Below are positions 9,403 through 18,825 of a stretch of DNA of 32,319 nt, in pieces. Source of the stretch: Candidatus Zixiibacteriota bacterium (GTDB lineage Bacteria; Zixibacteria; MSB-5A5; GN15; FEB-12); NCBI GenBank assembly GCA_024277795.1, contig JAJRUL010000099.1, forward strand, positions 1 to 32,319. The letters are read 5' to 3'. The position numbers and the translations under genes were made by a program. The notes under the pieces are model-generated. The model was not told where the DNA came from. It ran no database searches and saw nothing but the letters and a program-made list of their open reading frames with translations. Position 1 is the stretch's first letter, and the number at the start of each line of letters is the position of its first letter.

Positions 9403-9933
9403 TTGACTCGTCATTTGCAAAACTCACGAACTATATTTCTTGCTCATACAGCACTTTACTTAGCATTAGCAATTGTGCTTCCGATAGGGTTTCACGCGTT
9501 TGGATTGGCAGGGCGCGTTATGTTGCCTATGCACCTTCCTGTTTTGCTTGCAGGCTTTCTGACAGGACCGTTGAGTGGGTTCGTTGTAGGAATCCTCGCC
9601 CCAGGGTTGTCATATTTGTTTACATCAATGCCACCTGCTTATGCGGTTCCTTTGATGTCGCTTGAGTTGCCTGCATATGGTCTTATGGCAGGTCTATTAT
9701 ATAAGAGATTTCATCTGAATATAATACTTGCAACAATTTCTGCTATGTTTGTTGGGCGTTTGATTTTTGCTTTGTCACTCTTTTTACTCGGTCTGTTTAT
9801 GGAAATGCCGTATGATGTTGCCACCTTTGTTTCGGCATCTGGACCACTTATGACCGGACTACCTGGGATTATTGTTCAACTGCTTTTGATCCCTACAATT
9901 GTAGCGACAATACATCGTAGACGACCGCACTAA
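9403..9933 (+). CDS. ECF transporter S component-like membrane protein (substrate unknown)
   Basis: Multi-TM protein with AGRVMLPMHLPVLLAGFLTGPLSGFVVG typical of ECF S-components; TTG start 3 nt after the methyltransferase stop. Confidence 0.7.
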   Translation: MTRHLQNSRTIFLAHTALYLALAIVLPIGFHAFGLAGRVMLPMHLPVLLAGFLTGPLSGFVVGILAPGLSYLFTSMPPAYAVPLMSLELPAYGLMAGLLYKRFHLNIILATISAMFVGRLIFALSLFLLGLFMEMPYDVATFVSASGPLMTGLPGIIVQLLLIPTIVATIHRRRPH

Positions 9934-12185: not shown

Positions 12186-13130
12186 ATGGAAACTGACGGG
12201 AAAAGAATTGTCGCTGTTTTAGGATATGGGTCGCAAGGTCGGGCTATTGCTCAGAATTTGCATGACTCGGGCTACAATGTCATTGTAGGTTTGAAATCAG
12301 GATCACAATCAAGGCGTATCGCCAAAGCTGATGGACAGACACAGATAACGACCTTAGCAAACGCAGTTAAAACTGCTTCGATTATCTGTTTTGCATTGCC
12401 TGATCATACCCATAGAACACTCTATGAAAGTGACATTGAATCGAACATAGTCGGGAACAAGGCACTCTGGTTTCTGCATGGTCTTTCAATACATTTTGGA
12501 CAGATCAAACCTCCCTCTAACTGCGATGTTATCTTGATCGCCCCGCATGCGCCAGGTGTTGCGTTGCGTGAGGAATATCTCGGGTCGCAATCACTTTCGG
12601 GTTTTTATTGTGTGTATCAGGATATATCCCGTTCTGCCAAGAAGCTCACATTCGAATTAGCTGAAGCAATCGGTCTGAAACGGAATAATCTCATCAAAAC
12701 GACTTTTGAGCATGAAGCGATCGGCGATCTCTTCGGAGAACAAGCAGTGTTGTGCGGAGGGATGGCCTCACTTATTAAGAACGGCTTTGAAGTCTTAATC
12801 GAGGCAGGATTATCTCCTAAGAGTGCATGGCTTGAGGTAGCGTTTCAACTCGATCTGATTATCGACCTGATAAAAAAACATGGAATTGAAGGGATGTTCA
12901 ATAGGATTTCAGTTGCAGCTCGTTATGGGTCATTACTTACAGGGCCGAAGCTGATTGATGAGTCTGTGAAGAAGAGGATGAAAGATCAACTTGATGAGAT
13001 AACGTCAGGCCGATTCGCTGAAAAGCTTGCATCCCTTACTGAAGCCGATATATCAAAATTAAGCGACCAACTCAAAGCACTAACCAACCAAAAGCTTGAA
13101 CAAACAGCTCGTATATTTTCATCCAAGTAA
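12186..13130 (+). CDS. Divergent class I ketol-acid reductoisomerase-like protein
   Basis: VLGYGSQGRAIAQNLHDSGYNVIVGLKSGSQS Rossmann motif, HGLSIHFGQI, DLFGEQAVLCGG; several canonical active-site positions differ, so ilvC is not assigned. Confidence 0.85.
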   Translation: METDGKRIVAVLGYGSQGRAIAQNLHDSGYNVIVGLKSGSQSRRIAKADGQTQITTLANAVKTASIICFALPDHTHRTLYESDIESNIVGNKALWFLHGLSIHFGQIKPPSNCDVILIAPHAPGVALREEYLGSQSLSGFYCVYQDISRSAKKLTFELAEAIGLKRNNLIKTTFEHEAIGDLFGEQAVLCGGMASLIKNGFEVLIEAGLSPKSAWLEVAFQLDLIIDLIKKHGIEGMFNRISVAARYGSLLTGPKLIDESVKKRMKDQLDEITSGRFAEKLASLTEADISKLSDQLKALTNQKLEQTARIFSSK

Positions 13131-16824: not shown

Positions 16825-18825
16825 ATGAATAAATATCTACGGCAAGGCTGTTTTGTTTTGGCAGTGTTGTTAACACTGGTGGTGGCATGGTATGCATTTG
16901 ATTACCTCAGGGTACCAAGCAAGATTCATACTATAGCCAAAATAGTTCATCTTGAGGACCGTCGTGAATTCTCAGGTCGTCTCAAGAGCTTGCTTAAGAA
17001 TAATGATACTGAGATTCGTGCACGAACGGCTCTTGCAATCGGTCGAATCGGCGGACCGGGTAGTGCGTCTCTATTGTTTCCGTTTGTTATGAACGATCCG
17101 TCGTTAGATGTTCGTATGTCAGCAGTATTTGGGATCGGACTGACGGGAGAGAAAGATTATGCAGACAAATTGCTTGATATAGCGTATGATCTGCCGTCAT
17201 CGGTAGGTGCGGGAGCAGTTGAAGCAATCGGTCGATTGGCTGATAGCAGTATGACTGAAGTAGGGGAACAACTAGTTACATTTTTGAGTCACCCCTCTCC
17301 TGAAGTTCGTGAAGCAACGTGTTATGCTCTTTATCGTGCAGGAGTTCGATCAGCAGGTGCTGATGTGATCAGATTGCTACAGGATGAAAAGGATGAATCA
17401 GTACGTAAAGCGGCTTTATTTATGCTCGCTCGTACGGAAAACAAGAATGCTATGGATATATATGCCGACTTTCTTGGCAGTACAGATCCTGACAGTCGAT
17501 CACTGGCAGTTCAAGGTTTGAGTTTTGATGATAGTAATGAATCTTTACGCTACCTTACAATCGCGCTCAATGATGCAAATAATAATATTGTAGGCGAAGT
17601 TATTAAGGCACTCTCCAAAAGAAAAGCTCGTGTAGTTGCCCCCTTGCTTTTGAAGAGACTGGAACGTGAAACTGATGAGAAACTTATTATTCGGCTTATT
17701 GAAGCTTTCGAGAAACTCCATTATAGCACAGCAATTGATCAGGCACTTCTTATAGCCAGTCGTCGTGGTTCTGATAATATCGTGTCAGCAACTGTCACAT
17801 ATGTTACAAGTATACGAAAAGATCGCGCTGTCAGCTATATTGACTCTCTGATTCTCTTTAACGGTCCGCAAGTTCGAGCATCATGTGCCAAAGCATTTGG
17901 GATAATCGATGATGAGAAAGTAAAAAACAGACTTAACGGGTTGTTCAAAGATGAAGACCCTATTGTGCGCGCTTCTGCCTTTAAAGAACTGGTTAGAATA
18001 GACTCTTCTGATATTGATTATTATTTGCAAACAGGGTTGAATGATGTGGATTGGGTTGTGAAAGCACTTGCAATTAACAAAGTGGGAGAATTAAAGAAAG
18101 AAACATACCTTCCTGCTTTGCATACAATCTTATCAGAAGGGATCAAGGTTGATGCTGGAGTACGTCAATCAATTGTTGAAGCTGTAGGCAATTTCATTGT
18201 TGACGGGAAAGCAGATTCAATTGTTCAGGAGATATTGTTACTTGGGATGGAAGACAGCGAAGTCATTGTACGAAGTACCGCAAAGAAGTCCTGGGATAAG
18301 CAGAAGAATATGCCACCCGTTCCAATGTTGAGTATCGGACAGACGAGAATACTGAAATCAGAAATCCGTCATGCACTTAATCGGTACACTCATAATCCGT
18401 ATGCTACTATTGTTACTTCAAAAGGTGATATAGAAATTGAATTGTACCTTGATATTGCACCACTTACTGTGCTAAACTTTTTTGAGTTAGCCAATACCGG
18501 TTTCTACGATGGTTTGAGTTTTCATCGTGTTATCCCGAATACTGTTATACAAGGTGGCGATCCGAGAGGTGACGGTTGGGGTGGCCCTGACTATTTTATC
18601 CGTTGTGAGTATTCACGTGAAAGATTTAAGAGAGGAACTCTCGGTATTGCCACTTCAGGGAAAGATACGGGCGGATCTCAATTCTTTATAACTCTCTCGG
18701 CACAGCCAGAATATGATGGACGATATACAGTTTTTGGTCAAGTGCTTTCGGGGATGGATGTGGTAGACCAGATTGTTAAGGGGGATATTATAGAAACTGT
18801 TTATGTCCTGGAGGGTGATAGATGA
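16825..18825 (+). CDS. Membrane-anchored HEAT-repeat protein fused to C-terminal cyclophilin-type peptidyl-prolyl isomerase
   Basis: N-terminal TM; repeated HEAT helices (DTEIRARTALAIGRIGG, SLDVRMSAVFGIGLTG, SPEVREATCYALYRAG etc.); C-terminal FHRVIPNTVIQGGDPRGDGWGG and GSQFFITLS cyclophilin motifs. Confidence 0.9.
   Translation: MNKYLRQGCFVLAVLLTLVVAWYAFDYLRVPSKIHTIAKIVHLEDRREFSGRLKSLLKNNDTEIRARTALAIGRIGGPGSASLLFPFVMNDPSLDVRMSAVFGIGLTGEKDYADKLLDIAYDLPSSVGAGAVEAIGRLADSSMTEVGEQLVTFLSHPSPEVREATCYALYRAGVRSAGADVIRLLQDEKDESVRKAALFMLARTENKNAMDIYADFLGSTDPDSRSLAVQGLSFDDSNESLRYLTIALNDANNNIVGEVIKALSKRKARVVAPLLLKRLERETDEKLIIRLIEAFEKLHYSTAIDQALLIASRRGSDNIVSATVTYVTSIRKDRAVSYIDSLILFNGPQVRASCAKAFGIIDDEKVKNRLNGLFKDEDPIVRASAFKELVRIDSSDIDYYLQTGLNDVDWVVKALAINKVGELKKETYLPALHTILSEGIKVDAGVRQSIVEAVGNFIVDGKADSIVQEILLLGMEDSEVIVRSTAKKSWDKQKNMPPVPMLSIGQTRILKSEIRHALNRYTHNPYATIVTSKGDIEIELYLDIAPLTVLNFFELANTGFYDGLSFHRVIPNTVIQGGDPRGDGWGGPDYFIRCEYSRERFKRGTLGIATSGKDTGGSQFFITLSAQPEYDGRYTVFGQVLSGMDVVDQIVKGDIIETVYVLEGDR

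Follow-up and report, generated by a model that had tools for sequence, protein, structure and literature searches.

We propose that an ancient, reductase-only relative of the class I ketol-acid reductoisomerase (KARI, IlvC) is probably the ketopantoate reductase of the phylum Zixibacteria, a reading built on sequence comparison. PanB converts 2-ketoisovalerate to ketopantoate (2-dehydropantoate), which PanE normally reduces to D-pantoate, and PanC then makes pantothenate for coenzyme A. Our sample of 133 Zixibacteria genomes, 79 of them good, combines a KARI homologue of conserved fold and fixed active-site substitutions with loss of ilvB and ilvD, presence of panB and panC (and panD) and, with one exception described below, no dedicated panE. 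From this combination we infer that the isomerase activity was lost and the reductase activity retained, with ketopantoate as the substrate and valine as the source of its carbon.

A KARI scaffold with a substituted active site

The gene under study lies at positions 12186..13130 on the + strand of the window, the 32,319-nucleotide stretch of DNA analysed here. Its open reading frame encodes a 314-residue protein, the proposed ketopantoate reductase, that matches the Pfam domains KARI_N (2.6e-48) and KARI_C (2.7e-37), scores 283 bits against the NCBIfam IlvC equivalog model TIGR00465 (cut-off 226), and aligns with canonical KARIs at approximately 40% identity. The C-terminal domain is KARI_C, and the PanE C-terminal domain (PF08546) was not among the Pfam matches. 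An AlphaFold2 model, for which 45 aligned relatives served as input, reached a mean pLDDT of 94.8, and the best 50 matches in a PDB fold search with this model were all KARIs, at about 35-42% identity. Pfam, the model and the PDB matches agree on a KARI fold with an all-helical C-terminal domain. A preliminary description of this DNA, made from the letters alone, had recognized a class I KARI scaffold and suggested structural modelling as a check; the domain matches and the model bear it out.

Class I KARIs bind Mg(I) through an Asp and a Glu, and Mg(II) through the same Asp and two further Glu residues (PMC5940873). By alignment with these ligands, codons 180-185 of the window gene (12723..12740, + strand) specify Gly180 in place of the canonical Thr, the bridging ligand Asp181, and the Mg(I) ligand Glu185. 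The Mg(II) ligand Glu217 (12834..12836, +) is also kept, while Gln221 (12846..12848, +) occupies the position of the third Mg(II) carboxylate, a Glu in canonical KARI, so that only Mg(II) is short of one ligand from the D,E,E,E set. His121 (12546..12548, +) stands where canonical KARIs have the Lys of AP[K]xPG. Besides these changes, which read APHAPG, LEVAFQ, and EAIGD for ETETD, the window protein has KKHG for YEGG and AARYGS for AEYGD. Retained features include His98 of the HG motif (12477..12479, +), Ser242, and the NAD(P) fold. Every substitution named in the preliminary description was recovered in the alignment, and the D and E of DLFGEQ and the HG motif, which it considered retained, are indeed kept.

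The same changes recur across the phylum. Among 112 KARI-like phylum sequences on which residue counts were based, the active-site Lys is gone from all 112 (H in 87, L in 24, A in 1), Gln replaces the Mg(II) Glu in every sequence that reaches this site (111/111), and the canonical Thr before Asp is Gly in 112/112, with the counterpart of ETETD reading E[ATS]xGD. Asp181, Glu185 and Glu217 are invariant in the 112 sequences, Ser242 is invariant wherever readable, and the HG motif His is kept in 99/112. In the reference set of canonical KARIs from outside the phylum, K, E and T are all kept (33/33). Given this fixation across phylum members, the substitutions are neither chance nor sequencing error.

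Distribution, phylogeny and gene neighbourhood

By profile, KARI_C was detected in 116/133 genomes, nearly always as one copy per genome. A protein search of the profile-negative genomes revealed KARI-like fragments at contig ends in two others (G033 and G105), which brings the total to 118/133, and to 76/79 good genomes. Named relatives of the window protein come mostly from Candidatus Zixibacteriota MAGs. The preliminary description had raised the possibility of a second, canonical ilvC accompanied by ilvB and ilvD. A whole-genome search of the window's genome found none, with KARI_C occurring once, and the two partner genes are missing throughout the phylum sample: neither ilvD (TIGR00110) nor biosynthetic ilvB over its cut-off was found in any of the 133 genomes, although each model matches 14/14 control genomes. 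The KARI-like gene is phylum-wide and almost never shares a genome with another KARI, so it is not an extra copy maintained alongside a working ilvC. With ilvD and ilvB both at 0/133, there is no known route that uses dihydroxyisovalerate; the KARI-like gene cannot serve valine or isoleucine synthesis as known, and a role in branched-chain amino acid (BCAA) synthesis was rejected. Our literature search on Zixibacteria with pantothenate or BCAA auxotrophy yielded nothing useful.

In a first quick tree, two very long branches (L123 and L124) caused the phylum sequences to split. When these and two other long rows were left out and 19 active-site columns were removed, the phylum sequences formed one side of a branch opposite canonical IlvC with 95/95 support; as this tree is unrooted, monophyly of the phylum sequences is likely, subject to where the root falls. 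The placement inside canonical IlvC that the preliminary description had weighed was thus not observed. Its suggestion of a neofunctionalised reductase, or a KARI of altered chemistry, holds because the substitutions are fixed throughout a phylum without ilvB and ilvD and the sequences stand apart from canonical IlvC.

Related changes were also seen outside the phylum. Sequences L104 (genome G325) and L119 (G252) have T and Q, respectively, in place of the Lys and Gln in place of the Mg(II) Glu, and each is its genome's only KARI match. Both fall outside the Zixibacteria clade, so the Lys/Glu change looks convergent. Five other KARI relatives from other phyla (L102, L108, L118, L122 and L125) carry L, M, A, H and H for Lys with the Glu kept. 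Rows L105-L107, L110-L112 and L114-L117 of our 'variants' set keep both K and E in a KGSG...DLTGER pattern, which we take to resemble fungal/Bacteroidetes-type KARI.

The position of the gene next to nadC/birA, noted in the preliminary description, is correct for the window locus, and several genomes from the same family have replication genes nearby. As evidence the siting fares less well: conservation of the nadC/birA context stops at the window's family and nearby orders, with unrelated genes surrounding the KARI-like gene in other genomes, and the context therefore carries little weight. In the neighbourhoods that were read, the KARI-like gene never lay adjacent to panB, panC or panD. Two neighbours in the window are recorded here as separate observations. 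A HEAT-repeat protein fused to a cyclophilin-type peptidyl-prolyl isomerase (16825-18825) is likewise a neighbour of the KARI-like gene in several relatives, and a substrate-binding component of an ECF transporter, possibly for a vitamin, is encoded two genes away (9403-9933).

Pantothenate genes and the PanE family

We found panB in 119/133 and panC in 123/133 phylum genomes, and each of the 79 good genomes had a panB or panC match. In the window's genome, panB lies beside folate genes and panC has panD nearby; in G010, folB-folK-panB-panC-panD lie together, with panD following panC and without panE. The four good genomes that carry the KARI-like gene but in which panB was undetected (G060, G126, G081 and G001) have panC or a panC fragment. 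Co-occurrence of the KARI-like gene with pan genes gave a Fisher p of 0.004, a value that depends on four genomes without pan genes and also reflects completeness; because the KARI-like gene, panB and panC are all near-universal, this statistic is weak.

The PanE-family C-terminal domain (PF08546), by comparison, was found in only 16/133 genomes. For 15 of these 16 genes, the one in the window's genome among them, the setting is a benzoyl-CoA downstream cluster. In the window's genome, the gene has as neighbours Had (TIGR03201) and Oah (TIGR03200), which both exceed their cut-offs, and a Dch homologue that does not reach its own. Given this degradative setting, shared with 14 other genomes, the PanE-family gene of the window's genome is disfavoured as its ketopantoate reductase, if not strictly excluded. 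These catabolic paralogues keep PanE-like motifs and might serve as ketopantoate reductase in the 15 genomes.

As a side observation, the benzoyl-CoA downstream cluster of 15 Zixibacteria genomes always includes a PanE/ApbA-family reductase (L132 1075-5810; also L138, L140, L141, L150 and L152-L161). Its partners are Had, usually Oah and a Dch-like hydratase, and often a sodium:solute symporter-like or acyl-CoA synthetase-like gene. Annotation of these cluster genes as 2-dehydropantoate 2-reductase is probably misleading.

The sixteenth PanE-family gene, in G021 (L139), stands alone and scores 244 bits against TIGR00745. Only 3 good genomes lack a KARI-like gene, G021 among them, whereas G022, from the same genus, carries the KARI-like gene but no panE; this contrast, seen in one MAG, is what replacement of one enzyme by another would look like. 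In genomes other than these 16, no gene with PF08546 was found for the reaction linking PanB to PanC, a place that the KARI-like protein would fill. Exceptions to this arrangement are G019 and G084. G019 (estimated 100% complete) has panB (L148 5532-6350) and panC with neither a KARI-like nor a PanE-family gene, so that either its assembly has a gap or it needs another ketopantoate reductase. Both genes are also missing from G084 (93%), where panB is present and no panC was found.

Proposed function and alternative explanations

Ketopantoate closely resembles 3-hydroxy-3-methyl-2-ketobutyrate, which canonical KARI reduces after its own isomerisation step. E. coli IlvC active-site mutants that lose the isomerase and keep the reductase were reportedly described by Tyagi et al. 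in 2005. On the most economical reading, an ancestor of Zixibacteria lost ilvB and ilvD and kept ilvC for its side activity, with the isomerase residues replaced afterwards. The product would be an offshoot of class I KARI in which the acyloin isomerase half is lost and the NAD(P)H-dependent 2-keto-acid reductase half retained. Without the Lys and one of the Mg(II) carboxylates, alkyl migration by the two metals should no longer work, whereas Mg(I) (Asp181/Glu185) and the site of hydride transfer would persist. The enzyme would then most likely reduce the 2-dehydropantoate formed by PanB to D-pantoate, from which PanC would make pantothenate for coenzyme A, with 2-ketoisovalerate presumably supplied from imported valine. 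A dedicated, phylum-wide ketopantoate reductase on a KARI scaffold arising after BCAA loss, together with independent Lys/Glu loss in KARI variants of other phyla, seems likely on balance.

The side activity itself has precedent. IlvC of E. coli, Salmonella, B. subtilis and C. glutamicum reduces ketopantoate (PMC4306246, PMC11487621), ilvC from Buchnera rescues an E. coli strain lacking panE and ilvC, and canonical IlvC replaces PanE in both Buchnera and C. glutamicum (PMC4306246); in B. subtilis, IlvC is a third ketopantoate reductase (PMC11487621). KARI reductase activity is separable from isomerase activity and broad for 2-keto acids (PMC5940873, PMC4353338). These moonlighting enzymes share with our candidate the proposed reaction and the replacement of PanE by a KARI fold, but they are canonical, dual-function proteins within a working ilv pathway. 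Because Zixibacteria have lost both the BCAA pathway and the isomerase residues, their enzyme would instead be dedicated. Ketopantoate reduction by the KARI fold has thus been described as a secondary activity; the literature we searched contained no dedicated, phylum-wide form without the isomerase residues.

Compared with class I KARI in general (IlvC, EC 1.1.1.86; TIGR00465, PF07991+PF01450), the window protein shares the fold, length, NAD(P)-binding domain, Mg(I) Asp/Glu, one Mg(II) Glu, Ser, and the HG and PG motifs, and differs in its replaced Lys, in Gln for the Mg(II) Glu, and in EAxGD for ETETD. The Zixibacteria form is further set apart from canonical IlvC by genomes that have neither ilvB nor ilvD and by its own side of the 95/95 branch. 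PanE/ApbA (PF02558+PF08546, EC 1.1.1.169) shares the proposed reaction and membership of the 6-phosphogluconate dehydrogenase superfamily, but is a different family; the window protein has KARI domains and no PanE C-terminal domain.

The most serious alternative, possible though rather unlikely, is that this reductase-only KARI relative acts on another 2-keto acid or an imine, such as hydroxypyruvate, 2-ketoisovalerate or pyrroline-5-carboxylate, the last of which some Streptomyces IlvC can use. IlvC enzymes are promiscuous reductases, and the Streptomyces work, in which pyrroline-5-carboxylate was assayed, describes an interlock between IlvC and proline synthesis (PMC4353338); the neighbourhoods read also offer no link to pan genes. 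Another substrate would, however, leave the phylum-wide missing ketopantoate reductase unexplained, as well as the finding that the only genome with a stand-alone panE is one without the KARI-like gene. It is far less probable that the protein is a degenerate or non-catalytic ilvC remnant with a regulatory or structural role. Loss of its pathway partners would fit such a remnant, but single-copy retention across the phylum and conservation of D, E, E, S, the PG motif and the NAD(P) fold argue against it.

Two further explanations were weighed. A true KARI converting acetolactate to dihydroxyisovalerate, with the K/E/T changes tolerated and perhaps valine made with unknown partners, is improbable. 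The score above the IlvC equivalog cut-off is in keeping with it, as is an acetolactate-synthase-like ThDP enzyme in about 52 genomes (PRK08322 in the window's genome), but that enzyme is missing in 41/76 good genomes carrying the KARI-like gene, ilvD is absent from all 133, and no member retains the active-site Lys or the complete set of Mg(II) ligands. Least credible is a stand-in for DXP reductoisomerase of isoprenoid synthesis, whose isomeroreduction is analogous and for which no dxr match was found in the window's own genome; dxr is present in 105/133 genomes, mostly alongside the KARI-like gene, so the idea fails, and the isomerase residues are the very ones lost.

If ketopantoate reduction is indeed the function, the phylum would show, as an experiment of nature, how the two chemistries of KARI separate, since the fixed K/E changes should abolish isomerisation with reduction kept. 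The signature of H/L for K, Q for E, and EAxGD is usable as an annotation rule. It would correct the name 'ketol-acid reductoisomerase', which the protein acquires by passing the IlvC equivalog cut-off and which wrongly implies valine and isoleucine synthesis in these bacteria. For Zixibacteria, the assignment would close the gap left by a missing enzyme of coenzyme A synthesis across a whole, largely uncultured phylum.
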